Part shown: in pieces, positions 1 to 58,415 of the stretch
Layout of the letters: every line of letters begins with the position of its first letter
How positions within the stretch are numbered: position 1 is the stretch's first letter
NCBI GenBank assembly: GCA_902728285.1
Contig: CACVBU010001169.1
Coordinates: 448,598-512,597, forward strand
Direction of reading: 5' to 3'
Source of the DNA: Clytia hemisphaerica
Taxonomy: Eukaryota > Cnidaria > Hydrozoa > Leptothecata > Clytiidae
Length of the DNA stretch: 64,000 nt
The notes under the pieces: generated by a model
Told to the model about the DNA's origin: nothing
The model's database searches: none
Seen by the model: only the letters and a program-made list of their open reading frames with translations
Translations under genes and position numbers: made by a program

Positions 1-2156
1 ATATTCCATTTGCATATATTCCCACTTTAATAGATTTCACAGACCTTACATATTCATTTCATTTCCCGGTTATTAACACAAAAGGAACGAAAAAGAAGTA
101 CGGACAGAAAAGTGTTTATTACAGGGTGAATTCAAAAAGAAAAAAACTGTGATCATCGATTTTTGAAGTAACCTATTTCCAGTTTATCTTATATACAGAA
201 GATTCAGATTTACCCCTTCGATTTTACCCTTTTATTTTTCATCATCATTCTCATTTTACTATAGTCTAGTTGTAAAAAAAAAATAAAGTTGTTCGATTGG
301 AGATTTGTGGCAGTTTTTCACCTTAAAACTTTAAATGAACAGACAACAACTTTCCCATTAGAGAGGATTTGTTGCACACAACGTTGTTTCAACGTTCATC
401 TAACGTTATATGGACGTTGGGAACGTTTAATAAACGTTGAAACAACGTTGTGTGCCAGCTGGGAGATATGTCGCATGCCCGGTCAAATTTAACTGTACTT
501 CTCCGTAAAGAATCTATCTAGCTATTACAGCGATTCAGCTTGTGTTAGCTGAAAATATTTCCAAAATTAGATGAACGGGGGAGGTTCCAAAGATTTTTCC
601 AAAATTAGGAACGTTTATTCAGGACCTTAGAATAAACAATGGAAAAATGAGTAATTATTTTGTTTAGACCTTCCGCTGCATGGATTGGTAAAGAAAAATT
701 ATCAAAATCTTTTAGGCAATTAGTGCGTGCTTATTTAACTGAAAGGATATGGAATAGGCTGATACTAAAGTCTCAAAGATAACACACTTGATATCTGTCT
801 GTTCGATACTCGGTGACTAAAGTTAAGGATCAAGGGTGAACGAAGAAATCTAAATAGAAAAGAATTGCCTCCTTTTTCTCCCCTCAGGCAGATAACTAAG
901 GAAAAAGGCACATTCACGTCGTCTAAAATGTTCGAACAAAGCTTCTGAAAAATAAATAGTCAGCAAACTGAAATTACATCCCTGGGTCACAGACTTGCTG
1001 GGATCCCAGCTCGACCGGACAAATTGGCAAAATTTATGTCCCCGGTGGGGAAACACCCTTAAATATCAGCCCCACCGGGAAATTGACTTTGATTAAATCC
1101 CTATTCAAAATTCAATGTTTAGAAATTGCACTCCAAAACCATTCGAACTAGATTTTTTAGCCTTGGAACAATAGAATTTCTTTCCCCCTTTGGATTTCAA
1201 AGAAGTTTTATCTCCACTGAGGAAAAAAGCTCCACCGAGGCTGTGAGACAGGGGTGGGAGATTGAGAAACTTCAGCCATTCATCTTTAATGATCATCCAC
1301 TCTAATTACCTCCTAAATTAGATTTGTTTTGTCGCCACTGTGCCTCATGAAATACACCTTTTCGACCGCCAATTGCCGCGCGGCATTTCTTTGTCCATTT
1401 ACCACCCTAAAACCATCCTAGTCTTTTTTTGCACCTATAGACAATAGAAAAAGGTGTAAAAATAGGATTGGGTCGAGTTTAGGAGGGAGGGTAATTAAAT
1501 GATTAAGTAGCACGTGCCTGGCCGTGCGACTACGGTCGAAAAGATGTATTGACTGTGATGTTATAAAATACGGTGATATAAACTTATTATCAAAACTCAG
1601 TGAATGCAAAAGTAAACTTAGGGCTATAAAAAATATTAAAAGGTAGAATGTTTTCTCAGAATGGTAGATTTTCGACTTAATCCAAAATAGTTTTTGATAT
1701 AGATGTCAACCTGTGCTTTTATATCTTTTCTAAAAATTTAACTGAAAATGGGAAATAGCTAGTCATCACACGACACAAACATTAAACTGAAAACATCGCG
1801 TTATATATAAAAATCCACTGTTTGAAGAAATCATTTATATGAAAAATAATTCTTAGTTTGAATTGTAATATTCATAATGTGGCCCCTGGGGGGGGAGGTT
1901 GGGTACTCATACGATCCATCCCACGGGATGTGCCGCCCTTAATAGTTGATTTTCGAGACCTTCAAAATGCACTGTGAAGGAAAACTTTTTTGGATAGAGT
2001 ACACTACAAGGGACCTCTTTTTAGCTGGATACACTGTAAGGGTGTGTTAAGGGACTGCCGATTTGCAAGTCTGATAGTATAAATCTGATATATCTTTGGA
2101 ATTTTGTTTCGCCCCCATTTTGATTTGTTTTGAACATTGTGTCGATATCTCGACAT
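1..2156. repeat. 2.15-kb dispersed repeat, copy 1
   Basis: Nearly the same sequence recurs in direct orientation at 26985-29140, with scattered substitutions and small indels along its length. The left end may lie outside the window. It contains an inverted repeat (373-456), stretches rich in stop codons in all frames, and a G-rich tract near 1890. I see no transposase or reverse-transcriptase motif, so the element class is unknown. The right edge was set where the two copies stop matching, shortly before the hairpin at 2180. Confidence 0.85.
373..456. repeat. AACGTT-rich inverted repeat inside the dispersed repeat
   Basis: Arms at 373-396 and 433-456 are complementary at 23 of 24 positions and are built around the palindrome AACGTT. 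The loop also contains AACGTT-like words. The corresponding hairpin in the second repeat copy is at about 27351-27433. The position 391/438 pair is A-T here and G-C in the other copy, so pairing is kept despite the change. Confidence 0.85.
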
Positions 2157-2179
2157 ATAAGATATGAAATCAAACTACA

Positions 2180-2269
2180 GCAGTGAAAAGGTACCCTTAC
2201 AGTGCATTTTCCAAACTTTTCTATTTTTCTACCCTTGTAAAATGCACTGTAAGGGTACCTTTTCACTGC
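2180..2269. repeat. Perfect 31-bp stem hairpin
   Basis: Bases 2180-2210 and 2239-2269 are exact reverse complements, separated by 28 bases. The stem contains the word ACTGTAAGGG, which also occurs singly at about 2030 within the neighbouring dispersed repeat. A perfect stem of this length suggests a recent inverted duplication or a young foldback element. Confidence 0.9.
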
Positions 2270-6480: not shown

Positions 6481-7880
6481 CCTAGCTACGCTACTGCACA
6501 CCATAACACCAAAATGTTTGGGTTCTTCAGCAGAACCCAAATTTCACAACATCACGCTACAATCCCTGGCCCGCATAATGCAGATGTTTTTACTAGAACT
6601 CTCCCTACAACATCATGTCAACCGCTGGGGGGGGGAGGGGCTCTTCAATTATGTAATTTTGAAAATAAGAAATCTCATTGTTAACGTAGCAAAATCATAA
6701 CACGGTCACTGAATTCGAAAAGTTCAAATGGGGACCCCTCCCCACTGGAAAAAAGGAACAAAAATTAGTCGCCGGTTATAAAGGGGTTGGAAAGATACCC
6801 TTTGAATTTCATACAAATTGAATAACGACAACCTTGGAAAATTATTTTGATCTGTGAATATATAACTCGAATATATTTATTGTAAAATGTAAAGTTATCG
6901 AGACACTTTTATGTTATTAGCGTGGGTAATCGAGCCGCCTTATATGATCTGTGATTACTAGAAAATAATAGGGTAAAATCAACTTTGCAGCCCTCTAGTT
7001 AACAGAGCCCCCTTACATTACAAACAAAAGATTGCACCTATGTGTACTGCTTCATTTTATAACCTCTGATTCATATAATCTTTCCGTGTTTATCACTGAG
7101 GCAGGGGTGACGCGATACCTTCAATGCATAAAAATCATACCCGTATTTTTTGTCTTAAGGGCTTTGACCATAATCAAAAAATTGATTTTGGTATTTGAGC
7201 ATAAAAGTTATGTTTCAGGTTCCTTTACACTATAGTATTACACTTAACAAAGAATTACCTTTACAAATTGCTTTTTAATCAAATTCCTTAAAAGTAATTA
7301 AGAATTTAATTGCTCTTCGTCGCAAAAGTCTTCATTTTCTTCTTCATCAAATTCTTTGTTTGCGATTCATAAATTTTCAGACTCAGTACAGTTGGCCTAA
7401 CTAACAGAAAATGTATAACATGTCAAATTTTGTTAGCTACATCAGACAGAAATTTATATTTTGTATATGACAAATATCAAAATTCACCATGGTCAGAGCC
7501 CTTAATAACTCAGATTGACTAATGATTTAGGCCTATCAACGTATTGAAACCTGTACTAGCGCTCACTCCCATATACAATCATGTACAATTTTTCCAATAT
7601 TATCAGTAAAAAACATTTTTTCTATCCAAGATGAGCCAAGAAAAGTCTATAAGCCATACAGTAAAATACAAAAAAATATCCTGACTTTTATATTTAGATC
7701 AAGTATATCATCACGAAATTTTTAATTAAAATATTTTTTTGTATCAATCTGTTTGTAAATAAAAATCAACAAAAATATTGGTTACATTCTTGCTGAAACT
7801 CAATTTTTCCACAATGTTGAAAAAAACATAAAAAATCATTCTATTTTTTTTAATATGAAAATTATAACACTGTAGAGCCC
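6481..7880. other. Non-coding, no gene recognised
   Basis: Frames are short and broken on both strands, a G tract lies near 6630, and no splice-bounded exon is evident. Nothing else can be supported. Confidence 0.5.
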
Positions 7881-8149
7881 ATGCTATGATATGGAAAGAA
7901 GAGGGGCTAAGAATATAGTGACCAAGGAAGTGCAATCCCTGTTTGCGCAGTTGGAAGAAAATTTCTATGTTGACCCTCTAATATGCCTTGAAATGACGCT
8001 ATTTCAGACCGGCTTGGCCCCGATGAGGGCAAATCCTAGGCATCCTAGGATAGGGAAATCACTGCACTTACCTGACTCTGCCACCTCGTTTTCGCGACAC
8101 ACAGTGCTGATGGTGTATAGTAACTATACTCGAACAACTCGAGAGAACA

Positions 8150-10400: not shown

Positions 10401-11170
10401 TTTAGAAAGCTCTTAATAAAAGGTATTGGATTTGATAAAAAGAAGTAGGTGGTTAAAATAAGCCTTTTCAATACCTTTGGTCTTACATTTTAGACAAAAC
10501 ATACTGTTGGAGACATGCAGTAGGAGAACTTTCAGCCACAACAAATTCTTAATAAAGAAAATGAAATCTCCCTCCTTGGGGAATGTTCTAAGCCTCCTAA
10601 TCCCTCTAATTTCATCTAATTATAGTTTACCCTCTTAGTAAGGAACAAATAATTATAAGATTAAAGTTGAATAGATATTCATACAATAGTATTAAAGTTT
10701 ACCGAAAGATACTATGATAGGGGGTTATATAATTCTTTTAATTGCCATTACTACAGTGCTTTAGTCATATCTTTTAAACAAAACATACTCCAAAATATAC
10801 TGTTGAAAACATGCAGCTAGAGAACTTTTATCCACAACAAAGTCTTTATGAGGAAAAATGAATCTCCATCTTTGACATAAATTCTAGTTCTAAAGATTAT
10901 ACTCTACCCCCGGAGAGGATAAAATGTTTCGGAGTTAAAAGGTGCCTTGGATACCTTGAGAAAGGTATTGGCGTTGGTAAAAAGAAACTAAGATAGGGGG
11001 TTTATATAAGCTTTTTAATTGTTTTTAGTAATTCATTTTGACAAAATATGCTATTGATAACATGCAGTTGGAGAACTTTTATCAACAACAAAGTCTTAAT
11101 TAGGAAAAACTAATCTTCATCTAAGATAAAGATCTTGGCTCCGTAATTACTTTTACCCCCTGAATGGAAG
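10400..11170 (+). repeat. Three-unit tandem array of diverged ~250-300-bp repeats
   Basis: Three units share, in order, ACAAAACATACT, ACATGCAG, GAGAACTTT, CACAACAAA-TCTT and a CATC/CTCC block. The ACATGCAG words lie at about 10513, 10810 and 11060. Between units runs a GGGGGTTTATATAA-like stretch. The array ends about 130 bases before the start of the nuclease-helicase gene and so occupies its upstream region. A regulatory role is not demonstrated. Confidence 0.7.
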
Positions 11171-11303: not shown

Positions 11304-14300
11304 ATGGCATCACAATTGAATTTGGCAATGCAACAGAAAATCACTACATTGACATCGAAAATTATCGATCCATCCGAATGCACCCCACGAACGTCATTGT
11401 ATCATCAAATATTGACAAATGCACAATCTACCATTGACAACCAAAACAGAAAGTTCAACCTTGGGAATGGCCAGTTATTTACCGACCCTATTCTTGCCGC
11501 TGATCAGCTTCTCTTAAGAGAGTATGCTGATTCAGCATTATTCGACACCAATCGCCACGATCCTATATTTATTCCCCCAGTTTTTCAATCTCACCAATAC
11601 GCGAAGAAGGATTCAACCTCACATCTCCTTGATTTCGATGTTGACATAAACACTCTTAAGAAAAGTTTGGATAATTTGAAGAAGTTTTCGCCAGCCTTTT
11701 GGTTTACAGGAGAACTTCAAGCTTTCTATGATCTCCAATTAAACAACTCTAGCGGTGATGAAATCAACGCAAGAGAATTCTATAATTGGATCTTGAATGT
11801 CCAAATCATGTATCTTTTGATGGTGGAGATTGCCAATCAACCGATCCAAAGTTATTTCAGAATGTTATTTCTATCACTCTCAAATTTTTTCTTCCGTCAA
11901 CCAAGTACAAACGATCTGACTCTACCATCAACAACAGAGGATAACAACATATTCATCCAAGCATGTATTCAGGAATTGGCTTCAAAATCACCAGGTTCAA
12001 AATTGGAACAAACTTTCAAAAAGGTAACTTATCAATTATTTGTTTCTCGAAATTTAGAAAAATCCTTCTTGTAGTGTAACAAGGGTAACAAATTACCTCT
12101 GAAGCTGATCGTGATTATTATTGTCAATTGTCTTGTGTCGAATCTTTTCGGATGTTTACTCCATGCAGTGCTGAGCGTCTCTTTGAATACTTTCTTGTAA
12201 CAAAGTGAACAAGGACCTCTGAAGCTGATCGTGATTATTATTGTCAATTGTCTTGTGTTGAATCTTTTGTCTCTTTGAATACTTTGACTGGTTTTTCCTC
12301 AGCAACAATTTTTGTCAGTTTATTCCAGGTTGGTATAGTTCAGTAAAAGAAAGAATTCTTTTGTACACCTCGACGGAATCCATCGCTTTCAAAGAGAAAT
12401 TCTTTTTAATTCCTAATTTCATTTCCAGACGTTAAAAGATGTTAAAAAAGAAGTCGAAAACTTGGTCAAACAAAACCCACCATCTCATCCAACAATAAAA
12501 TGGCTTTTCGGATTAGTTCTATCGGAGCTCGGTGAAAAAGGCGAACGCTCGTTTTTCGAAAAACTCTATTCGATCAAAGATGACCCTGTTCTTCAAGATA
12601 CTGTGATTCTCAGTTCCATCAACTTTCTCACCAATGTCCAAAAGAAAATGCATCAGGAGATTGACGTCCTTTTTTTCTCGTGGACCAAGAAATTAATCAT
12701 AGGCGTTGAAATCAAACGGACGCTGACTATAAAAGCTTTTCACCAGTTGGATAAATACCATAAATTGATAGAAGAGAGGTTGAGTGATCAATTGGGACAA
12801 GGCTGGACGTATCATCCAGTCATTTTGGTTGAAAAGGACGACCTTTCTTTTAACAATCAACATTATATTGACCAAGAAACAGATTTGAAATGTTGGTTAT
12901 CCAACTTGCTGGCAAAATATCCGACTGTTCCCTCTGAAATACCTTTCATCCCAGCAGTAAATCAAGTTAAAGACCTCCTAAGAATCGTTGTGTTTGCCAT
13001 TCATGCTTCAAAAACAGCACCCATTACCAGATCAAACTGGGTAGAGTATATCTCGAAAGCCATCGATACCGTCTGCACTACTGACAACATACTCTTTTAC
13101 AGTCAGCGTCAACTTCCCATCATGAAGACAGACACTTCTGAATTCAATAAGATCCTCTTTTATGCCCCTTACGGATGCGGCAAGTCTTTCATCCTTCAGG
13201 AGAAAGCAAAACAATTGAGTGAAATGACGGAATACAAAGGACGTGTTATGTATGTCATTCAGAGGGAATATCATTTAGAAACCCTTCTTGAGTGGAGATT
13301 GAAAGACGAATTGGAAAAAGAACATGGAGTTGACGTCTATGGATACAGAAGATTCGAAGCCTATATAGTAAGTTGCATTTTGAATCTAATTTTGAATCTT
13401 TTTGAAATCTAACCAAATAAAAAAGATATAAAAAAATTCTAGTTTTTAAGACTTTAACGTAGGTTTTCAATGATTCATAATTTGCTTTTTCCATCATCTT
13501 TTTACAAAAAAAAAAACACCGTTCAAATTTGCATGCTGCAAGAATGAGAAAAATTTAACTGTTTCTATATGAGCATACGTGAACATTTTAATCAAAAACT
13601 TATAAACTACATAATAGTGCACTGTTGTGATCTTCTTCTCCTAATGTTACTAATATTGTTAAAAAAAGTCAGAAACGCTTGAATGTTCGATTTGGTCGTG
13701 AGCTTTTCCGTGGCAGATTTTCCGTAGATTATTTGCAACCTCGCATTATTCCATATTTTTGAAGAGATTTTGTTAAAATAAAATTATTCTTTTTTTACAA
13801 ACAGCATATTGAAAAGCTGATGAAAAAGATTCAAACGAAAAACATCAACGCATTATTCATCGATGAGTGTGACATTACCGGTAATCAATTGAAAGAAATG
13901 ATAATGAAAGTCAAACAACACGTTAAGGTGATTTGGATTGCATCAAACGGATCGGGTCATCGGCATTTTTTATCAGGTGAAGAAAATTTACTCTTTACCA
14001 ACGTTAATACTTTATCAGGTCTTGGAGATCTTTCGCCGTATGACGATTTCATGAAATATGAACTTGACGTGAATTTAAGAAACTGTAAAAGTATCGTTAC
14101 AGAGGCTTTACGTCTTGAAGAAAGAGAAAGTTCGGGATATAAAGAGGGTTTAGTACGTCCACCACAAAACCACCCTGACGGAGAGAAACCCTACCATTCC
14201 AAATCATTTGAAGATGTCATCACAAAAATGAGAAAGATCACGAACGATGGGGTGCTAGTGATATCTGATATTCATTACGTGGGGGATGATTATCGAACAT

Positions 14301-14587
14301 TGAGCAAGTTGCAATTGAAATGGAAAATGTATGGAGAATATCTAAACCGTTTCAAAAAAGGTGAAAGTCCATATCATCATCTTGTAGATGGAAACATTTT
14401 ATTGATGAGGGACTATGGATTAATTTCCGGATTCGAGTGGAAGAACATCATCATTATCAAGAAAGGAACCTTCGGTGCTGTTGATTACCATCCATGTAAT
14501 TTGATCATGAGATGTACCACGAATCTCATGATTGTTGACGTAGAAGAATTTTCTTCAGATGAAACCGATATAGTGAAGATTCTTTAG
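11304..14587 (+). CDS. NERD-like nuclease / SF1 helicase fusion, three exons
   Basis: Exons 11304-12023, 12429-13367 and 13805-14587 join in phase 0 at GT-AG sites to give 813 residues. The ATG at 11304 sits in AAAATGG. Residues 1-240 match no domain I know. A PD-(D/E)xK nuclease of NERD type follows: GERSFFEKL helix near 278, EID with Asp319, then VEIK with Glu334 and Lys336, and a downstream Gln/His helix. Superfamily-1 helicase motifs come next: Walker A APYGCGKS (486-493), Walker B LFIDEC (Asp573, Glu574), a NLRN arginine segment near 645 (motif IV-like), [10 protein letters not shown] near 763-771 (motif V) and [10 protein letters not shown] at 788-797 (motif VI). All key residues are present, so both activities could be intact. 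The likely role is cutting or unwinding nucleic acid; substrate and pathway are unknown. NERD-helicase fusions are known in bacteria. I do not recognise a named animal family. Exons are visibly less AT-rich than the flanks. Confidence 0.85.
12095..12290 (+). repeat. 120-bp tandem duplication in intron 1 of the nuclease-helicase gene
   Basis: A block beginning ACCTCTGAAGCTGATCGTG at 12095 restarts at 12215, a period of exactly 120 bases. About 54 bases match almost perfectly, followed by a shared TCTCTTTGAATACTTT. It lies wholly within the intron. Confidence 0.85.
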
Positions 14588-20084: not shown

Positions 20085-21111
20085 AGAGAATTCCTATTCT
20101 GGAAATTGGTATTCCTATCAAGCCTCATCTGTTAGCTATAAATTACACCAAAAATGAAGTTCTAAAAGCGTTTCCTCTTTTCAGAACACGTTTGGATAGA
20201 TGTCGCTTTGGAAAACTCGGAATACTCATTTTGAGCATTATTGCCTGATTTGGGACCAAGACAATGGATTCCTATTCTTGAAACTTCTATTCCTATCAAG
20301 ACCAATCTATTAGTGCCTCATTACTCATGCCTTTCCAACATTGGAAAGTACGTACACCTCTCAATCAAAACGAGATCTAACATCGTAATTTCTACTTTCA
20401 TAGCGTATTTAACTCCTCATTCAAATAATTAATTTTCAAGTGCTTTTTCATAGCCAAATTCAATACGTTCGTAAACTATGCCAGCATGCCTTTTATTTAA
20501 CTTATAATTTATTTATTATTTTAGATTTATAACAGGACCAAAGGTAATATCAGATACTTGTAACTGTTTGCGTAATCCTGTATAAATATTCAATAAAAAC
20601 TAAAACTAAAACTAGCTACAAATTAAGTCAAAAATGAAGTTCTAAAAGCGTTTCCTCTTTTCAGAACACGTTTGGATAGATGTCCCGTTGGAAAACTCGG
20701 AATACTCATTTTGAGCATTATTGCCTGATTTGGGACCAAAAAAATGGATTCCTATTCTGGAAACTTCTATTCCGATCAAGACCCATCTATTAGCTACAAA
20801 TTAAACCAAAAATGAAGTTCTAAAAGCATTTCCTCTTTTCAGAACACGTTTGGATAGATGTCCCGTTGGAAAACACGGAATACTCATTTTGAGCATTATT
20901 GCCTGATTTGGGACCAAAACAATGGATTCTTATTCTTGAAACTTCTATTCCTATCAAAACCCATCTATTAGCTACAAATTAAATCAAAAATGAAGTTCTA
21001 AAAGCGTTTCCTCTTTTCAGAACACGTTTAGATAGATGTTGCATTGGAAAACTCGGAATACTCATTTTGAGCATTATTGCCTGATTTGGGACCAAAACAA
21101 TGGATTCCTAT
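20085..21111 (+). repeat. 179-bp satellite, about four units
   Basis: Units share AAAATGAAGTTCTAAAAGCG, CAGAACACGTTTGGATAGAT and GAATACTCATTTTGAGCATT. The TTCTAAAAGC words at about 20641, 20820 and 20999 give a period near 179. The first unit is separated from the others by the insertion at 20314-20613. The array ends abruptly at the inverted repeat starting at 21114. Confidence 0.9.
20314..20613 (+). mobile_element. 300-bp insertion in the satellite, probable LINE 3' end
   Basis: Satellite sequence stops after CTATTAG and resumes with AGCTACAAATTA. The inserted 300 bases end in AATAAAAACTAAAACTAAAA, a short-repeat tail typical of 5'-truncated LINE 3' ends. No coding motif was recognised in so short a piece. 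Confidence 0.65.
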
Positions 21112-21610: not shown

Positions 21611-21624
21611 TATAGAACGAACAC

Positions 21625-22350
21625 TTAGAATGAAAGTTTCCGCATTACAGAATAGCATACGAACACGTAAGATGAGGGTTTCCGCATTACAGAATAGCAT
21701 ATAGGAACACTTAGAATGAAGGTTTTGGCATTACAGAATAGCATACGAACACGTAAGATGAGGGTTTCCGCATTACAGAATAGCATAGATATACCTGGAA
21801 TAGTGGTTTCCGCATAACAGAATAATCTGGAATCATGGTTTCCGCATAATAGAATAATCCTGAATGGTTTCCGCATTACAGAATAACCTGGAATGGTGGT
21901 TTCCGCATAATAATAATATGAAATGATGGTTTCCGCATAACAGAATAACCTAGAATAGTGGTTTCCGCATAACAAATATATGAAATGATGGTTTCCGCAT
22001 TACAGAATAACCTGGAATTGTGGTTTCCGCATAACAGAATAGCATAGATACTTTTAATAATGGCTTACGCATCATAGATGTAGCTGGAATAACGTACAAT
22101 AACGGTTTCTACATTACAGAATAACATAGAAAAAGCCGAAAGAGATATAAGAAAAATAGTCTAGACATGATCTGAGTAGGCTAGAAAATGTTCAAAAAAT
22201 CGTTTTTGAATAGCAGAATATGTTTAGAAAACATGTATGACAAATATGTTTAGAAACAAACAAATATGTTTCGATTATGTTCAGAAAAAAAGGTTTTTGC
22301 ATAACAGAATAGTCTAGAAATGTCTAGAAATATGGTTTCCGCATTACAGA
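21625..22350 (+). repeat. Minisatellite, about 16 copies of GGTTTCCGCATTACAGAATA
   Basis: A conserved core of about 20 bases recurs about every 30-50 bases with variants (CATAACAG, CATAATAG), decaying toward the right before one good last copy near 22333. The variable stretches between cores are themselves similar (CCTGGAATGGTGG type). A minus-strand open frame of 116 codons through the array is repeat-derived. Confidence 0.9.
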
Positions 22351-29329: not shown

Positions 29330-31713
29330 GATGGAACCTCTTATAGATGAGGAGTAATTAACTGATGAGGAGTTTTTCAACCATCCGCATAGAAGAAAGC
29401 TCTCATCCTAGATTACTCCTAATTTTGTTCTTAAATTGTAGCTGTTCAACTCATCCAATNTGGAGAGTCTTTTACGTTTTCTCATAAGAATACGACGATC
29501 TCGTTGGAATCTTTGAAAATTTTTTTGGAGGTTTTCTCTTTGGCAAATGCTTTTCACATCAGAAGACATTTTTCAAGAAGTTGCATATGACGATTTGGGT
29601 CATATAGATTTGTGGTCCAGGTCTTGAGACCAATTAATCTCTGTTAATTTTTGTTAATAATTTCCCAGTCAATTTTATCACTTTGGAAGTTGTAGAGGTC
29701 AAATTTTGCTTATTAAGTTACTTTCTTCAGTTTCCAGGAATTGATTATAAAATCAGATGTGTTGTAACATCTACAACAAGGATATCTGAATAAATAGTAG
29801 GTGAGCATGTGGAATTAAATACAGTGTCGTGTTGTTGTGAATAGAAAGTCTAAAATATACCTCACGGTGTGTTGATTTGTGATCAGTTGATTAATGTGCA
29901 AGTGCTTAAAAATTTAAAACGTCCAGAAGCTGTTTATTGCAATTTCGTGTTGGGGTTGAAGTCTCTCATTAAGAGTGTGTGTGGTATGTTGAAATCCCCA
30001 GGTATTGTCAGGTGTACATCATTACTATCAATTTTGCTATCATTGCAGAAAGGAGTTCTTGTAATTCAGGTGCTCAGATTTGTGGTCTGGATTGTTGGGT
30101 TGGCTGTAGATAACACAGAGAAGAATATTAATTTTTTTTTAAAAGCATCAATGCTTCATTTACTCGTTCGAGAATTCGAAAATGGGCTTCGAAGAAGGGT
30201 GCATGTCATTACGCAATAAATGCAACGCCTCCGCTTGCTCTGCCCATATTTCGATTTTACTCTGTCTCTGTTTTCTTAAAAAAGTGTAATTTTCAATCTC
30301 AAGTTCTCCTTTTTTGTATTGTCCGTTAACCAGGTTCGTTAAGCCTAAAAAATTGTTTTGAGCTGTTTGTAAGATCTTGAGGTAGGGTACAGATGAAGGT
30401 TTTGTTGGGGCAAAGTCCTTGTATATGACAAACGAAAACATATTCAGTGTAGGTTTAGAAGTAGTTTGGTAGTCGGGTCAGCATCAGTAAGGGCATCACT
30501 GTCCCCGTAGATTCCTTGGAAATGTTGGTTCCATTGGGGGTGCTGGGGTGGAGATAGTAGGGGATGTTGACGATGAATGTGTTGAGTTGATGTGACAAAT
30601 CGTGGTTCCTGAATTGTATTTGTTGGTTTTGGTTGCTGAACAATTGTTCACAAGAGAGATTATTTCTGTGCGAAAGTTGTCAGGATTGGCGAGAAAATCC
30701 GAGGTTTCATCATTACGATTGTTTTGCTTTTTCTGATTCGTTTGGTTCCCTACATGCGTGAATTTGCAGTCAAGATTAAAGCATTCCCCTCTTGTAATAG
30801 ATGATGAACATCCTCGGGTGGAAGCTTGGCACTTGGTACCTAGGTTGCAGCCTCTTGGTTGTTGTTGCCATATTTGAGCAATTTTGTAGGCTCTAGGAGG
30901 ATAAATGACAGTCTCGCCTTCAGTCCATATTTACATTGCCTTTTATTAGAAGCGACATTTTGATCCTTTGTCTTTGATTTGGTCCTGAGATCTTGATCCA
31001 GGATATTGGGCGTGATCGTTGTTGCTGTTGTTTCAGTTGATTTCATTTGGGGTCCGCCGCTGTTTGGTTTATTTGTGGAAGTATCTCTTCTTCATTGGTG
31101 CATGATCTCATCGTCTACTACACTCCAAGTAGATTTGTCCTGGGATTCAGTTGATCTTGGTGTTTTGTTTGGTGGATTCGGTGTGTTACTATCATGGGTG
31201 AAAGAAACAGTGTTATCTTGGCAGGATTGACACAGGAAGATCATGCCTGGAATTTTGAAAAGTGTATCGTGTATTCTCTCGTTATGATCAACTAGGTTCA
31301 TATCTTTCAAAAGATTCAGGTAGCACTCTCGGTGTACTTCTTGACCACATGATGCACACTGGAGAAAGGGTTCATCATTGAGTTTGATAACATAGGACAT
31401 GTTGCAGATCTGGCATACATCTGGAAAAAAGCTTTTGACTTTGAGGCAGAGCTTTTGGACAAGTTCATTCTTGTTAGCAGATTCAACTTCCGCTTTGACA
31501 GGAAGTTAAGTGTGTCGTGAATTGTGTCTTTTTTGAAACTTTTGGGTGTGATAAGGATTTTGTAGGTTTCTCTGGATTGTACAAATTGAGACAAGATTTG
31601 ATCTGGGGATCCGGTGCTTGAAGTGATAGTTCTGTTACTATTCGTTTCCAAATCTGTACGTCTTCATTTGGTTCCCCTTCTGGTTCAATTTCATCCGTTG
31701 GTTTAGTAGCCAT
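29330..31713 (-). mobile_element. Degraded LINE: ORF1 and start of ORF2 (CR1/L2-like)
   Basis: On the minus strand ORF1 begins at 31713 (MATKPTDEIEPEGEPNEDVQ) and survives in several frames. A PHD-type finger (VCQIC, QCASC, HRECY, LCQSC) lies at about 31420-31215. A CCCH-type segment (KRQCKYG, then CSSSITRGECFNLDCKFTH) lies at about 30950-30740. ORF1 ends near 30160. ORF2 follows, with a GDFNIPH apurinic-type endonuclease motif near 30000-29980, then LLDVLNF, LDFLFTTT and KIDWEIINK at the expected order toward 29650. Frameshifts and stops are frequent and no reverse transcriptase follows, so it is a dead, truncated copy. One undetermined base is at 29460. Confidence 0.75.
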
Positions 31714-34824: not shown

Positions 34825-36246
34825 TCACAAACATTTTGAATTTTTTCTTTATTTTGAAACTGATGCAATCCGCTGGCCATGGTCTATGATTAGGGAAGTA
34901 TTAACAATTTTCTTGAAAAGGAAAACTTTCCAAATTAGGAAAGTGAAACTATTTTCATAAATTTTGAAAAATACAAAAAGGTTGTGTGTTCCCAACAGCA
35001 TATTTTGATAGATACCAACCTCCTCTAGAGAAATTGAATGTTTCAAGTTGTACATACACTAACACCCAATAAAATCCTTTCTACATGATGCGGAAACAAA
35101 ATTTAAAAATGTTTCCGAGGCTTTACCGCTTTGAAATTTCATAACTAGGAAAGTTATTCTTCAGGGCAGTATATCTCAACGCTCTGCCCATTAGATTTCA
35201 TATTTTTTGCACATAGATCAATTTTGACTTACTAAAACTAATCGAAAGGGTTAGAATTATTAACTGTCTTTCTTGACGTTTTTTGACTGTTTTTATAATG
35301 ACTTTTGACTTTATACCTCCATATCTCGATAACTACTTTTCCAAAATTAAAAAAATGATACATCAAAATTTTAAAGTTTGCCTTTCCTCTTTACCACAAA
35401 AAGAGAATTTAGTTCAAATTCAATTTTTTTTCGGACACAGTTACCCTCCAAACTCTTATACTTTTTTGTGGGTCACCCGGTAGACTGGATGAAACAATTT
35501 TAAAAGTAGCCCGGTAGTATATGGTAATATGCTTTTGCTTAGGCGAACAGTACGCCAGATTTTTGTTGTTTTTGCCAGGTAAAAAAGATCAAAGCAATGT
35601 TTTTATTTGAAAATAAGAGATTCAAAATCTGTTATTGATGTTTGTTTCTCATTCTCAATTATATTTTTCAACTTCAAGTAGCTTTTTTGTTATTTGAATT
35701 TTAAACATTTTTATTTCAAAATGGCAACTTCGTCAAATGCTCCTAGTCTACTTCACTCAGTGTCATAAAGAATCATTAGAAAGTTTCCTTTCCTAATTAC
35801 AGTAGGAAAGTCAGGAACTTCACAAAATACTTTCCTAATCAGACAAAAGCTCTTGACTGTTAAGTTCCTTTAAAAATTTTGGGCCTTACTACGTGGGTCA
35901 TTCCTATTGAAAGGTTGAGAGTAGTCATGCTTTGTGCTATAGAGTTCTCTAATAAGGTTGAATATACCTCTGAGATATAATATCCAGCTTAAGCTAGTAT
36001 GTAATGTACTAAAGTGAATAAAACTTCTTTTTTTGCACTTTTTACCTATTATATGGAACCTTTAAAGTCAATTATTTCAAGCTTGAAAAAATGGACTTAA
36101 AGCTGCAAACATTTAGCAAAACCTAAATGATATTGATGCTGTATGAAAAACTTTTTTTCTGAGCATATAGTTTGCTTTGTTACACTTCTTACTTCAAATA
36201 TTCAACCTGAACAGTATATAATATGTTCTTTTATTTTCTTGTATAG
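34825..36246. other. Upstream flank of the ERp72-like exons; one transposon end
   Basis: ATACTTTTTTGTGGGTCACCCGG at about 35458-35480 resembles the end of the TA-flanked element at 39504-39963, but a matching left end was not found. No signal-peptide exon or first thioredoxin half-domain was found here. Confidence 0.45.
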
Positions 36247-39200
36247 GTGTGGTCATTGTAAAGCACTTGCACCAGCATATGCTGAAGCAGCTAAACAATT
36301 GAAGAAAAGTGAAAATCCTGTACCACTGGCAAAAGTTGATTGTACTGTTGAAAAAGATGTCTGTAACACACATCAAGTACAAGGTTATCCTACATTAAAG
36401 TGGTTCAAAGATGGCGAAGCATCAGATTATGATGGTCCTAGGGATCATGACGGTATGTATTTCCCAAAAACATTTGTTTGCATTTATGTAGCAAGTAGTT
36501 GATTTCTCCGTAAATTGTGTAGGATTTTTATGTAGGCACATTTCCAGTGGAATACTTTTCCTGTTTCAAAATGGCAGGAATTTCACATTTATTATAATTT
36601 TCCAATAATGAGGCTGAGACATCTATCTGCTATCTCATCCATCTTTAGGAATTGTTAGTTATGTTCTCGAGAGAAGCGATCCAAACTACAAACCGCCACC
36701 TGAAGCTGTGCTCACACTCACTAAGGATAATTTTGATGAAATCACTCAAAAAGAAGAACTCATGCTAGTCGAATTTTATGCACCATGGTAAGATGTTGTT
36801 ATTTTGCAAATTTATTTAAAATCGCTGTAAGAAGTTCACACGTTAGAGGTCCTCCTTGGTAAATTCTAACCAATCTCTTCGTGCTTTATAAAAAGTTGGT
36901 AGGTGTATTAAAAGACAGATAATATTGATCTGGAAAATATGCGAATCCTGTTATTATATGGTATCACTGATAAGTTATATTGCATTAAAGTTTACTTTTG
37001 ACCTAATTTGCGACTGAACTGTTTGAAAGAGGTCATCAAATTATCTTTTTGCTTTTGGTTGCAGGTGTGGTCATTGTAAGAAGATCGGACCAGAACTAGA
37101 GAAAGCTGCCAAAGTATTACAAAAACGTGAAAAACCAATTTCTATCGGAAAGGTTGATGCAACAGTAGAAACTGATCTGGCTACTAAATTCGAAGTGACC
37201 GGTTACCCCACAATGTTTATCATGAGGAATGGGAAGAAATATGAATACAAAGGACCAAGGAATGAGCCAGGTTAGTCTTCGGCTAATTTATCCATAGCGT
37301 CATCCTGGGGTTTAGGTCCCAGGCAAAAATTAGGCCCCCTGAGTTTTAAGCCCCCCCCCCCTCCAAAGAGTCATGAAATTTTTGGTAGCCCCCAGGGCTT
37401 TCTACATTCAACACTTTCAAAATTTTGTTCACCAAAAAAGGATTATTCGATGTAAATGGTGTTGCAGTTCGAAAGTAAAATATTTTGCTCACTTTATATA
37501 AGAATGTTGGCAGCGCAGACGAAAATTTTTCAGCTTCATGAGCTTTAATTTGTGTAATTGAAGCCAACCATTTTAAGATGAAGTATTCAGCCGCCATGTT
37601 AAATGAAGAGATTTCAGCTCTCCCCAAGTACATTAGAACCCCCCAAACATTTGAAACATCTTTAGCCCCCAACCTTTTTTGGGCTTTTTTGAGGGTGTAC
37701 TAGCAACTCCCCAACTAGCAGGGAGGCTGGGAAAAGGCTGGCGCTATGTTATCTATAATTAATTTTGGAACAAACGCTGGAGTGGAAATTTCGACACTAC
37801 GGTCTCTCGCCTGCTATTATTTAAATGTTGGTAGCTGTTTCTTACTCTGGTCAGTTGTCTTTACAATAATCGCAAATCAAAATAAAACTGCTTTAAAAGG
37901 CAATTTTATAAAAGAAGAAGCATGTTTCCCTGGAATTGATCGAGATTTTGAAACTCCAGATAATTTTTTACATTCCATACTCCATAACACCTTAGAAATC
38001 AGTGAATACTTGATCAATCAAGAAGGCGAAGCAACGAAACTGAAGGCCACCATGAAAGAGGTCAAGAATTTCATCAAAGACCCGAACAACAATGATCCTG
38101 TCATCTTGGCTGTTGCTGACAATGCAGAGGACCCTATCTACAAATTGTTTGTTGAAGCCAACAATGACGTCAGAGACGATTACTCTTTTGGACACACTTT
38201 TGCTAAAGAAGCGAAGAAATATTTTGGGTTGAAGAAAAGCGCCATCTTGTTGATCCAACCTGATCATTTGAGATCGAAACATGAAGCAAAACAGCACGTT
38301 TACCAGGTATGGCAGCGTATGGCGTGCATGGATGATTTGTATAAATTATTGTGAGAACTCAGTCAAAAATGAAAAATTAATTTTAAGGGATACATGAATA
38401 TTTGTCCCACTTTCAAAATTTCAAGTTCAACGGGCTCTGACCGTTCATATAATGAGAATTTGATATATTTTTTCATTTTAGGATGAGAGTGGTAGCCCAT
38501 CAGAAGTTCAAGAATTTTACAAAAAGAATTACATTCCATTGGTTGGTTTCTTCAGGACAGACAATGAAAATCGTTTCAAAAAGAAACCCATGGTGCTCGT
38601 CTTTTATGACGTCAACTTCTCTCCAACTTATCGATCAAGTAAGCGAAACTTTTTTCCCAAGAAAATTCTAGCTAATTGCTGTTTAAAGTCGCCTACTGTT
38701 GATAGTGTATCTCTAGCTTCACTCCGCCAGTCTCATATTAATCGCATCTCGGAAATATTACTCAAATGATATTCAACTTTTCAGTCACACAATTCTGGAG
38801 AAGCAAGGTGGTTGAGGTTGCCAAAGAATTTCCTGATGTTCAATTTGCTGTGGCCAATGAGGAAGACTCGGAGGGTCGATTGAAAGATCTTGGTTTGACT
38901 GAGTCTGGTGAAGACGTCAATGTGGGTGCATATGATGCAGCTGGAAGACGGTACGCTTTGGTTGACGAAGAATTCAGTGAAGACACTTTGACTGAGTTTG
39001 TTGAAGAATTTTTGAAAGGTGAGATTCAATTTTTTTTGCCTCTTTTCTCAAACATCTGTCATTGCTGGCGTAATCTTTTGGCAATGTAGGTGTATTGTAG
39101 ATTTGATTTCATTTTCATTGAATTTATTTCTTGATATTTCGAATTTTTTTAGCACTTTGTGATTCTATTTATTTCATTGTGATAAAAAGGTTTCGGGAAC

Positions 39201-41041: not shown

Positions 41042-42393
41042 ATGTCATCAAGGAAAGCACATCAAAACATTGGATTCAAAACTGCCACAACATTGAGACC
41101 GTCCATCCAACAGGTTTACAACGAAGAAGAACAACAACGGAAACAAGATATTCTCAACAGAAAACAACAACAACAAAGTACTCAGAAATTTCTTCTTCGG
41201 GATCACCTAGTTCTTCACGAAACGGTTGATCAACAAGACTACCAACGGTTGGCAAAGTTGATGCCTTTGGTGAAGAATAGAACTTATAACATCAATGCGC
41301 CTGATGAAGATTGGTGTTGCAGAAGCCCCTTACATGTTGCATGTTCTAATGGTATGTTAACGGTTTGGAATCAACCATGAAAATCTGTATTCGGTTTTAC
41401 TCTTTACTCTTACTAGCACACGTTTTTTTATAAGAACATAAGGCTTCGATGGCCAAAATGTTAAGAACATTTTAAGGCTTTGCAGACTCTAAACCACCCA
41501 ATTTCTTAGGAAAGTGGACAAAAATACTCAATGGTGAAATAAAAACATGTTATGAACATTATGAGGCTTAAAACTCAAAAAGTTAAGAACATCCGAAGGC
41601 TTCAAATATTTTGGATGTTCTTATAAGAAAAATGTGTATTACTTTTTGATAATCTTACATCCGTGAGATGGTTTCAAGGTTATCACGTGGCCTTCGAATT
41701 ATTTAAGCAGCACAGATACTCTCGGGTACTTAATAGCCGTCCCCCCCCCGCTAATTAATTTTTCGAAAATTTTCCACCCAGGACATTCTTATTCCAACCC
41801 CCCCGCTTATAAATTTTTGGGAAAATGTTTTTGAAAGTTCCCGTTTTTGTCCTAATTCAGCTGTATTAACCTCCTTTTCAAAAAATTTCCACCCAGGACA
41901 TTTTTATTCCAACCCCCCCGCTTATTCCAAACCCCCCCCGGCTATTAGGTACCCGAGAGTAGGCAGATAGACGTTTATTCGAAGGTAAATTTAGTGTCCT
42001 ATGAAAAAATTAAAATCCGAAAAATTTTGCCTTTCAAATTTAAATCCCCACCAAATTGAATTCCTAAATTCAGTATTTTTGGTATTATTCAAATCTGTTT
42101 TTTTTCTTCCAGGTAGCATACGATGTTGTCAAATTCTTTTAGAGCATGGTGCCTACCATTCAACTCTGACGTCGTCAGGTATCACACCTGCTCATTTCGC
42201 AGCAGAGAGAGGCTTTTTAGACATCCTACAACTGTTGTTTTATTACGGAGCCAACTTACAAATGGAAGACTTTTCTAAGGAGAGACCTATTGACCTGGCA
42301 GAGAAATACAATCAAATTGAATGTGTGGAGTTCTTAAAAAACATTCAAAACTTCGAAGACAATGATAGTGGCAGTGATGAAGAACAACTGTAA
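41042..42393 (+). CDS. Small ankyrin-repeat protein, two exons
   Basis: Exons 41042-41351 and 42113-42393 join in phase 1 at GT-AG to give 196 residues. Residues about 20-60 are Gln/Glu/Lys-rich (RKQQQQSTQK). Ankyrin repeats follow: LVLHETVDQQDYQRLAKLM, SPLHVACSNGSIRCCQILLE, GITPAHFAAERGFLDILQLL and RPIDLAEKYNQIECVEFLKN; then an acidic tail EDNDSGSDEEQL. The TPAHFAAE and P-I-A-Y-C-FLE arrangement resembles the vertebrate ANKRD66 type, an assignment made from memory and therefore tentative. It is probably a cytoplasmic adaptor with unknown partners. The intron holds two transposons. AATAAA at 42546 may be its polyadenylation signal. Confidence 0.85.
41414..41640. mobile_element. TIR element, TATAAGAACAT family (best copy)
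   Basis: Left end ACACGTTTTTTTATAAGAAC and right end GATGTTCTTATAAGAAAAATGTGT are inverted copies of each other. It lies in the intron of the ankyrin gene. Related pieces lie at 5525, 9985, 15000, 42615 and 61505. Confidence 0.75.
41717..41961. mobile_element. TACTCTCGGGTACC-type TIR element, copy 1
   Basis: Inverted ends TACTCTCGGGTACTTAATAG and CTATTAGGTACCCGAGAGTA. Inside, CATTTTCCACCCAGGACATT-CTTATTCCAACCCCCCCGCTTA is present twice in tandem. Other copies lie at 50996-51268 and 63661-63929. C tracts near 41745 and 41935 are part of the element. Confidence 0.85.
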
Positions 42394-56000: not shown

Positions 56001-58415
56001 CAAGCACAAGCATATCTTTTCTTCTCTTCCAAAGGTTTCAGTAAACACAATTGACTGCATCCTCCTTTCTTATATCGACATGGTGATTGTACTGGTGGAA
56101 GGAAAGAGTGATAAAGAGACTTCAGGGAAAGAAATTTTAGCAGATGAGTAAGTAAGTCTGCTACTGCAGTCGGAGGTAACCTGAATGCTCCTCTTTCGAT
56201 AGCTATCTACCCGAAGGTAGGGGAGGGCACCACTCTTTCTCCTTGGATTGCTCCACTTACCCTTGATCCTTCTCTTAATTGCTGAGCATCAAGCAGAGAG
56301 GCATCAAGTACCATTTTGGGAATCTTTGGTATGACCCAGCTGGGGGTTGAACCCACAACCTTGCAAACCGTAGCCACATTTTCTACCACTGCATTACGGT
56401 CGCTTGGTTTTGTTGACCAAGTGTAAAATCTGACTTATTTTACTGTACTTCCATCAACCTGGCGAGTATTTGAAAATTATTTTTCAAGATGTTTTGAAGG
56501 ATTTTCATCATGTGAAGAGTGGGTTTTAATAATTTTTCCCAAGAATCAACTTTCAAAATCAGCTTTTTAGAATTATTCTGGGCAATAACTCTCCAAAAAT
56601 CTGCAGTTTACTATCAATTTCCTTTTTGTATATCATTTCGATAAGAAATTCTTACAATGTACAGATTGTGATACTTACTAGATTCTTGAGAGCCTTTTCC
56701 GAAAGGTTTAGCAGCAGAGTAAAAAGGTAACCCTTTAATAATCATTGAACAGTTGAACCAATCTTGAGTTGTTTCCAAAACTGTACGATTACATCGAAAT
56801 ATTCCAGCTTCCACGTTATCTTGATTACTGCCTGATGAAGTCAAAAAAACTTCTTCCTTGAATACAGCCAATGAACTGATAGCACCCCAAATGTTCCTTG
56901 GGATTTCCATTATAACTTCGCGACCTGTTCCATCCATATTAATCATTTCAATTTTGCCTTCCCAAACATCAGCCCAGTAAATCAAATCATCCAAAGGGTC
57001 CACAGATATTGAAGAAAGTAGACCAATGTCTGAATTTACAACAACCATGTTATTCGATCCATCCATGTTTGCTCTCTCAATTTTCTTATCATCCCCTGCA
57101 TCAGCGAAGAATAGGTACCTACAAAATTAAAGCAACAACACATTGAGTTCATCAGGAATATAATCAGGTTTTCAAATAGTTTTCTATAAAATATTTAATA
57201 AAAATTACCATTTTATATCACTATGCAAAAAAAAGGAAAAAAATACCAAGCCAATCTCAAGAAATGGCAAACGAACAGGTGAATGAACAAACATCAGTTA
57301 ATTTAAAGGACCTCTGTGGTAGGTTAAAAAAGCAAGTGAAGGGTGATACATGCTAAATTTAATTTAACAGTTACTACATTTGAACATCATGAATAAATTT
57401 AAGACAGGTATTATCGCTGATAACTTTGGAATAAATATTGCCAGAATATTTTTTATATTAGGCAAAACAGAATCAAAAATATGGATGGGTTTATATAATG
57501 AAAATATGACTTTCTAAATTTGTATTCAGCAAAGCAAAGTGGAAAAAATAACTTTCTAAAAAAAATCAAAAGTTTTTTTATTTGTCAGAAAAACAACTTT
57601 CTGATAGGAATTTTGATGATTTAAGGCAATTTCTTTGAATGTATCCATCCTAAATAATAATGATGGTATGTTTTAATTCAATTTTTGAAAAAATAGACAT
57701 TATAAAGCTGAATTGATACAACAATATGGAAGTGATTGTGTCAAAAACTTTGTCAAGAAAAGCCAATTAATATGACAAAATAATTGTTTTCTAAGATTAT
57801 TTTGAAAGTTTGAATGCTTACCCATGTCTTGGTGAAACACGTATCCCTCTAAGAGTTGCTATTTTTCGTTGAAAGAGAACTTTCAGCATTGACCCATCAT
57901 TATTGATAACTGATATTCTGTTTCGGTTGTCCGTAAAATAGATTTTCTTTGTCACCCAGTCCACAGCTAGATGATGAATCTCATTGGCAGACTTTAACAA
58001 GAGCTAAATTTGATAAAAAGTTTTGGTAAAAAAACAGCCTGAAAAAGTTGTACATTTACAGCTCCACAGATGAAAAGTACTGCAACAACCCTAATAATGT
58101 TTTTTTGCCTTTCATAGAAAATGAATCAGTCTTTCTTCAAATTAAACACTTGAAACAATTCTGCAAGCCAAAAGACAAATTTAAAAATTGCTTGGTCACT
58201 ATTTTTTGCTACCTTTGTGTCTTTAGTGATGATATTGAGTGAGTAGATATAGGTCGAGTCAGTGATGAAGTATATTGTCTGCATCTCAAAATCATAATCA
58301 AAGTCATTAAGCAGCTTCAGTTGTGGACTGATTGGTATGATATCATCTGATGAGCTGTCATCATATTTTTGGACAAACTCATCCGTCATAAACAAAATGG
58401 CATTACTTTTGCAGG
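47085..58415 (-). CDS. LRP5/6-like Wnt co-receptor (signal-peptide exon missing)
   Basis: Eighteen minus-strand exons: 58213-58415, 57822-58003, 56679-57118, 55954-56091, 55301-55504, 54829-55024, 54257-54584, 53892-54078, 53159-53570, 52537-52946, 52211-52339, 51609-52023, 50715-50929, 50170-50412, 49702-49836, 49333-49434, 48806-48931 and 47085-48343. Phases close throughout, giving about 1773 residues. Four YWTD beta-propellers (about 1-275, 321-564, 626-900, 943-1234) are each followed by an EGF module. Two LDLa modules (1279-1355), a TM segment (about 1386-1408) and a tail of about 365 residues follow. This order is diagnostic of LRP5/6, which binds Wnt and Dickkopf outside and Axin/GSK3 through PPPSPxS/T motifs inside. 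The tail has one exact PPPSP (YGPPPSPGG) and degenerate relatives (NPPPTI, PAPPATPIY, PPSSYHPPS). The first LDLa is reduced, and only two are seen where vertebrates have three. No signal-peptide exon was found before the window ends. Confidence 0.93.
48476..48711. mobile_element. MITE in the last LRP intron, 236 bp
   Basis: Ends AAGACCATGTTCACACGT and its inverted relative ACGTCTGAACATGGTCT. The inner parts of both arms are built of GTTCCG/CGGAAC words. No coding capacity. The superfamily is not determined. Confidence 0.75.
50996..51268. mobile_element. TACTCTCGGGTACC-type element, copy 2 (left end lost)
   Basis: Matches 41717-41961 through CTAATCAATTTTTTCGAAAA, the duplicated CCACCCAGGACATTT block and the right end ATCAGGTACCCGAGAGTA. 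The left terminal repeat is missing. It lies in an LRP intron. Confidence 0.8.
56170..56405 (-). mobile_element. tRNA-derived SINE in LRP intron 3
   Basis: The minus-strand head reads like a tRNA: TGCAGTGGTAG (A-box region, about 56382-56392) and GGGTTCAACCC (B box, about 56343-56353). The body contains CTACCTTCGGGTAGATAGCT and matches the fragment at 2401-2500. A real tRNA is excluded because the acceptor arms do not pair. Confidence 0.8.
57120..57815. other. Long LRP intron, no further feature
   Basis: AT-rich intron between the exons at 57822 and 56679. No repeat or exon was recognised. Confidence 0.5.

Follow-up and report, generated by a model that had tools for sequence, protein, structure and literature searches.

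What could an animal do with a gene that appears to join a nuclease and a helicase in one chain, a pairing that is a standard design in bacterial phage defence? The question is raised by a gene at positions 11304-14587 (+) of a 64,000-nucleotide stretch of Clytia hemisphaerica DNA, hereafter called the window (G000:C805:448598-512597 of a 417,433,876-base assembly). An earlier note, made from the letters alone, had read this gene as a NERD-type nuclease fused to a superfamily 1 (SF1) helicase and had suggested a role in defence. We found that the gene belongs to a family with more than 100 loci in the same genome, in which the predicted nuclease is under purifying selection and the helicase half is under diversifying selection, and this fast-evolving family probably serves nucleic-acid defence, in which the helicase would be the sensor. 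The splicing proposed at the locus proved exact in its exons, its GT..AG borders and its phase-0 joins, and the three exons give one frame of 813 residues with introns of 405 and 437 bases. This model is among 8 in-frame GT/AG combinations at the locus, and its exon-1 donor and exon-2 acceptor are conserved in the closest paralogues.

Exon 2, used as a query against the genome, had 127 matches, all at E <1e-21 and 115 of them without a stop. After joining of pieces these amount to ∼117 loci on 82 contigs, locus counts that are lower bounds and that uncollapsed haplotypes in the assembly could inflate. A same-strand exon-3 match lies ≤6 kb downstream in 108 of the 117 loci, and both matches are stop-free in 87 of these 108, a low figure because a match may extend past the true gene end. 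Exon 3 itself found 126 matching pieces and exon 1 found 148. Of the 127 exon-2 places, 90 were put down for retrieval; pieces of 10 kb were taken for 20 of them and pieces of 1.8 kb for 20, and 6 exon-3 regions were retrieved in addition. In many more distant paralogues, exons 1 and 2 form a single open frame of ∼550 residues. The exon-3 frame spans 683-1110 residues in the 6 additional regions and extends beyond motif VI; in the window gene the stop codon TAG comes only 23 residues past the motif VI-like RCT segment. Shifted self-similarity revealed C-terminal tandem units in the long members L049-L054, clearest in L050 (units of ∼147 residues) and L049 (∼155), whereas no similarity to the other long members was seen in the tail of L051. 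In two loci the beginning of exon 2 (residues ∼1-63) is present a second time, in part, 5′ of the gene, at 2036-2256 (+) in L023 and 7848-8062 (-) in L024, and 11 short exon-1 matches, mostly to residues 25-77, stand side by side at G000:C823:292059-293978 (-).

Selection was measured in 15 of the 20 ten-kb loci, leaving out L016 (exons 1 and 3 missing from the piece), L024 (a stop) and L026-L028 (too distant); for exon 3, L012 (no exon 3 in the piece) and L013 (broken) were also dropped, which left 13 copies. The ratio of nonsynonymous to synonymous divergence (dN/dS, taken as mean dN over mean dS) was 0.30 in exon 1, 0.30 in exon 2 and 0.71 in exon 3. In exon 2, dN exceeded dS in 0 of 105 pairs, and in exon 3 about four to five 30-codon windows had ratios above 1 (1.07-2.14), including those at residues 46, 136, 151 and 163. 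Codon site models M1a and M2a were then compared in our own implementation, with branch proportions from the nucleotide tree and nominal p-values. For whole exons, twice the log-likelihood difference (2dlnL) in favour of M2a was 196 in exon 3, compared with 45 in exon 2 and 7.3 in exon 1. Segments tested with their own trees gave 60.7, 35.6, 42.4 and 67.6 in exon 3, i.e. a signal in every quarter; along exon 2, from its first segment to its last, they gave 0.1, 0.4, 9.9 and 33.5, and in exon 1 they gave 2.1, 0 and 0.7. Hence no positive selection was detected in the two segments that make up exon-2 residues 1-150, where the predicted nuclease lies, and the nuclease serves as an internal control because it is part of the same genes and is without signal. 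Recombination is present among these copies: exon-1 residues ∼142-200 have been swapped for a diverged type in 6 of 17 close loci. The ∼117-locus family, the conserved N-terminal domain, the diversifying selection on the helicase half and an odd motif III, which is discussed below, all went beyond what the earlier note contained.

The N-terminal part of exon 2 bears what we read, from conserved residues, as a PD-(D/E)XK nuclease signature. In an alignment of 26 exon-2 sequences (A1), whose 25 other rows are 36-92% identical to the window, the claimed catalytic residues Asp319, Glu334 and Lys336 (exon-2 residues 79, 94 and 96) are kept in 26, 25 and 26 copies, respectively, and the claimed upstream helix keeps its G in 25 and its E in 25. 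Gln346 is invariant (26/26), and the Tyr of its QxxxY-type helix is found in 16 of the 26. Because most of the other rows (20 of 25) share just 36-51% identity with the window, conservation of these residues goes beyond chance, and the D...(D/E)xK residues, the E of the upstream helix and the downstream Q that mark the superfamily are all present. Profile matches agree on the same place. Among the 26 rows (here and below, counts of Pfam matches to exon-2 rows cover the best 25 of 43 families), HSDR_N_2 was found in 9, DUF4268 in 6, HSDR_N in 3, PDDEXK_4, NERD and NucS_C in 2 each and YhcG_C in 1. In 10 nuclease fragments of paralogues, Pfam matches sit on the D...ExK stretch, with HSDR_N_2 in 8 (best E 0.0005) and NERD in 1; every match was under its curated cut-off, and L035 gave none. 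A few unrelated Pfam models score equally well in some fragments, and NERD (E 0.015) was outscored by FUT8_N_cat (E 0.0032) in the fragment from the window. The exon-2 alignment reached EndoMS in the PDB at E 2.1, and a single-sequence model of the nuclease, made without an alignment, had a mean predicted local distance difference test score (pLDDT) of 38.7. Thus, assignment to the superfamily follows from the conserved residues together with weak Pfam matches that coincide with them. The commonest of these matches, under cut-off in all cases, is the N-terminal nuclease of the type I restriction subunit HsdR (HSDR_N_2, PF13588). In HsdR the nuclease continues into an SF2 motor, whereas the motor that follows the nuclease in the window family is SF1-like.

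The more specific NERD label had to be given up. The window sequence scored at best 16.2 bits with PF08378 against a cut-off of 22.1, and a longer fragment scored 13.1; among the paralogues the NERD match in the 10 fragments reached 14.3 bits and those in the exon-2 rows had a best E of 0.011. A search of the whole genome with PF08378 at E 0.1 returned no candidate, and the same model matched in 2 of 14 control genomes.

The end of exon 2 and exon 3 together resemble an SF1/UvrD-like ATPase half. The Lys of Walker A is kept in 25 of 26 rows, the DE of Walker B in 18 of 18 and the N, R and N of an LxxNxRN segment each in 18 of 18; GF of the GFEW segment is present in all 16 rows with letters, and the motif VI arginine in all 14. 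The elements by which SF1 is recognized, from Walker A and Walker B to the arginines of motifs IV and VI, thus occur in order. We compared an exon-3 profile of 18 rows (A3) and a joined helicase profile of 16 rows (A4; 12 of 14 joined rows, 2 of these cut at the end, plus 4 exon-3-only rows) with the PDB. The former matched GajB at E 0.005, over Walker B through motif IV, and PcrA at E 0.1-0.4; the latter matched PcrA at E 0.0008 and 0.0019, in register at Walker B and at motif IV. In Pfam, UvrD-helicase was found in 4 of 26 exon-2 rows and UvrD_C in 1 of 18 exon-3 rows. In PADLOC, 16 helicase sequences matched GajB and Nhi in 2 cases each, RTasNERD-Hel in 1 (E 2.1e-5) and seven further families in 1 each, and the helicase part of the window gene alone matched GajB at E 0.0035. 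When 6 of the 7 joined exon 2 and 3 proteins were submitted to PADLOC, 2 matched anything, one of them AbiO. A PHROGs search gave a DNA helicase family at E 0.037, and the single window protein had one match in the PDB, a designed peptide at E 0.23. The Schlafen helicase model (DUF2075) was found neither in the Pfam lists of the window at E up to 5 and 10 nor among the best 25 of 43 families for the exon-2 alignment or 16 families for the exon-3 rows.

Some of these searches also suggest a different ATPase, i.e. an AAA+ switch of the DnaA/DnaI, ORC or STAND type that is no helicase, which would itself be compatible with a role in defence. Bac_DnaA and nSTAND_NTPase5 matched 14 and 13 of the 26 exon-2 rows, DnaI, DnaA and RFC are among the PDB matches, the best NCBIfam match of the window protein is orc1/cdc6 (TIGR02928, E 0.018), and WIASN can be read as an AAA+ sensor 1. 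However, these matches span the P-loop to residue 613 at most, just past Walker B; the later part matches GajB and PcrA with LxxNxRN on motif IV, and a second GajB segment, not significant alone, aligns GFEW with motif V and RCT with motif VI. We therefore regard such a switch as improbable.

How the copies arose bears on whether the family belongs to the host or to an element. With six of the 20 ten-kb loci as queries against the rest, homology beyond the gene was found in the flanks of many pairs and ended at differing places, which fits segmental and tandem duplication; no common element ends were found around the copies of these queries, in a comparison where target-site duplications were not searched for. 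Exon 2 had no relatives in phages and plasmids, and in searches that rely on short conserved patterns neither exon 3 nor the exon-2 alignment had relatives in viral contigs, nor the exon-2 alignment in prokaryote genomes. A transposon or integrated virus, whose insertions the copies would be and whose movement the nuclease and helicase would serve, is thus poorly placed, although the copies are dispersed over 82 contigs, their flanks carry repeats and unalignable insertions, and some copies are broken. Introns are retained in close copies, 38 of the 117 loci have another within 60 kb, frames are still open at 37-51% identity, and the homology past the gene ends and the searches of phages, plasmids and viral contigs point the same way. 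We set this explanation aside as a first choice, since the ends of flank homology vary between pairs, and hold it to be quite unlikely. Contamination is ruled out by introns common to close copies, by animal-type neighbour genes and by the family in the same genome, and the argument made earlier from introns and intact catalytic residues, that the gene is neither a contaminant nor a dead copy, holds well.

We put at even chances the reading that this is a large host-encoded animal family, with an N-terminal domain, a PD-(D/E)XK nuclease and an SF1/UvrD-like ATPase in one chain, which works like bacterial nuclease-helicase defence. The helicase half would recognize nucleic acid that is abnormal or foreign, be it viral, from a transposon or damaged, or would move on it, and cutting by the conserved nuclease would be licensed by the ATP cycle of that half; a virus or mobile element would be recognized at the diversified half, or would resist the protein there. 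On this reading the family proteins would cut DNA or RNA, and viruses or mobile elements would be the source of the pressure. Because the motor part changes quickly while the cutter is preserved, in more than 100 copies, the pattern is that expected of an arms-race family, and the defence role suggested earlier has thereby gained evolutionary support, although the role itself is a conjecture still. A bolder version, to which we give somewhat less than even credence, is a germline repertoire of ∼100 single-chain nuclease-helicases on an NLR-like scale, where a helicase sensor, diversified in each copy, would direct an invariant nuclease, i.e. a bacterial-style intracellular defence. If true, the family would count as a candidate repertoire of innate effectors of a new kind in an animal, and this predicts that specificity resides in the helicase half. 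Strong diversifying selection on a helicase core is unusual in itself.

Known systems offer partial likenesses. Gabija consists of two proteins and has a TOPRIM nuclease; its UvrD-like sensor helicase, GajB of the antiphage pair GajAB, is likewise an SF1/UvrD-type helicase paired with a nuclease and is the best solved match of the exon-3 profile, with motif IV in register and V and VI weakly so. The window family differs in having one chain with the PD-(D/E)XK nuclease first, an odd motif III and an animal host. In PMC10952713, GajB is described as binding DNA termini and promoting GajA activity. Nhi, RTasNERD-Hel and other phage-defence nuclease-helicases also hold nuclease and helicase together, and the Nhi and RTasNERD-Hel profiles match a few helicase sequences of the window family weakly. 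NERD (PF08378) occurs in Mokosh type I and Nhi-like systems according to PMC10952713. In contrast to Nhi and RTasNERD-Hel, the window family fails the NERD model, showed no prokaryotic relative in direct search, and has an additional N-terminal domain as well as repeated C-terminal units in its long members. In the antiphage complex Hachiman (HamAB), as described in PMC12278908, the sensor helicase HamB controls the effector nuclease HamA, and the likeness to the window family is this sensor-effector logic; HamB differs in being a separate chain and an SF2 Ski2-like helicase. By analogy with Gabija and Hachiman, the nuclease may thus be an effector under a helicase-type sensor. PcrA/UvrD (SF1A) is the closest PDB match to the joined helicase profile, from which the window family departs in its WIAxN-like segment for GDxxQ and in its fused nuclease. 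No animal nuclease-SF1 fusion family was found among the matches listed in open-licence literature, as judged from titles and the starts of abstracts.

Repair offers another home for such proteins, as nuclease-helicase pairs are common there (RecBCD/AddAB, Dna2), and PcrA is the best solved match. A housekeeping enzyme of DNA repair or RNA processing, duplicated by chance, would not be expected to occupy more than 100 loci, to change quickly in its helicase half or to have the odd motif III, and we judge it very unlikely.

Several results weigh against the defence reading or its parts. Motif III of UvrD-like SF1 helicases is GDxxQ, yet the motif III position starts with W-I in 18 of 18 rows and is WIAxN-like, GDxxQ being absent; the motif set is not canonical for this reason, and translocation is uncertain because motif III is non-canonical. 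The ordered set of SF1 motifs claimed earlier therefore stands for Walker A, Walker B and the IV-, V- and VI-like segments, which are conserved, and not for motif III. In the joined profile, DnaI (E 0.0015) is about level with PcrA, GajB is absent from the PDB match list, and the two P-loops are not aligned with each other in the best PcrA stretch; the second GajB segment mentioned above adds no significance of its own. Joined exons 2 and 3 of the window gene had no match in PADLOC, as was the case for 3 of the 5 other joined proteins, the window protein stayed under every curated cut-off in the Pfam and NCBIfam scans, and single-sequence structure models had mean pLDDT of 39 and 36, both <40. 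As for selection, the test was borderline for the whole of exon 1 (p 0.026), exon-2 residues 151-225 gave p 0.007 at their 2dlnL of 9.9, and recombination can inflate a selection test of our own implementation, a concern that separate trees lessen and do not remove. Moreover, diversifying selection is also compatible with conflicts besides antiviral defence.

Such other conflicts could be of the toxin-antidote, germline or reproductive kind or involve Crinkler-like effectors, the diversified half serving to escape antidotes or to reach new targets. Diversifying selection and growth in copy number fit any arms race, and the selection data fit a toxin-antidote or reproductive conflict almost as well as defence. 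Proteins of the Crinkler type likewise combine an NTPase and a restriction-endonuclease fold, in the order header domain, NTPase and C-terminal nuclease. This order is not that of the window family, where the nuclease precedes the ATPase and a Pfam scan of exon 1 gave zero matches and hence no header domain, and the later ATPase half matches SF1 PcrA and GajB. We consider another conflict of this sort unlikely. The features of the gene are given in Table 1.

Table 1. Features of the nuclease-helicase gene in the window, with motif and domain names as predicted
Feature	Position	Strand	Remark
Exon 1	11304..12023	+	240-residue N-terminal domain
Intron 1	12024..12428	+	GT..AG, phase 0
Exon 2	12429..13367	+	313 residues: predicted PD-(D/E)XK nuclease region, linker, Q-motif-like segment, P-loop
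Predicted PD-(D/E)XK nuclease region	12525..12878	+	Protein residues ∼273-390
Putative catalytic set	12663..12716	+	Asp319 (12663-12665), Glu334 (12708-12710), Lys336 (12714-12716)
Gln346	12744..12746	+	QxxxY-type helix
Exon-2 end, residues 226-300 with P-loop	13104..13328	+	Positive selection, 2dlnL 33.5
Walker A / P-loop	13164..13187	+	APYGCGKS
Intron 2	13368..13804	+	GT..AG, phase 0
Exon 3	13805..14587	+	Remainder of SF1-like helicase, 260 residues and stop TAG
Walker B	13850..13867	+	Ends in DE
SF1 motif III position	13934..13945	+	WIAS; WIAPN in many paralogues
Motif IV-like	14063..14083	+	LDVNLRN
Motif V-like	14429..14440	+	GFEW
Motif VI-like	14510..14518	+	RCT

Repeats occur in and around the gene. 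Intron 1 holds a 74-base direct repeat (12075-12148 and 12196-12268, 91% identical), and several direct repeats of 41-157 bases with 75-87% identity lie just 5′ of the gene at 10419-11122. Farther along the window, tandem arrays at 20613-21111 and 21617-22041 are built of 178-base and 32- to 86-base units, and a 124-codon minus-strand frame is open across most of the second. A PHD-finger-like frame at 31092-31505 (-), above its Pfam cut-off at E 1.5e-5, adjoins a Cys-rich frame without match at 30496-30930 (-), possibly part of a retrotransposon. The neighbour genes encode a thioredoxin/PDI-like protein (36137-38354, +), ankyrin repeats (41995-42393, +) and LDL-receptor class B repeats (56614-57126, -). 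A mitochondrial contig has, under genetic code 5, a frame of 380 residues that was taken by eye for cytochrome b. Elsewhere in the assembly, on G000:C212 from ∼130 kb, short TTAGGG runs recur every ∼6 kb, at least those listed, as if inside a long tandem repeat.

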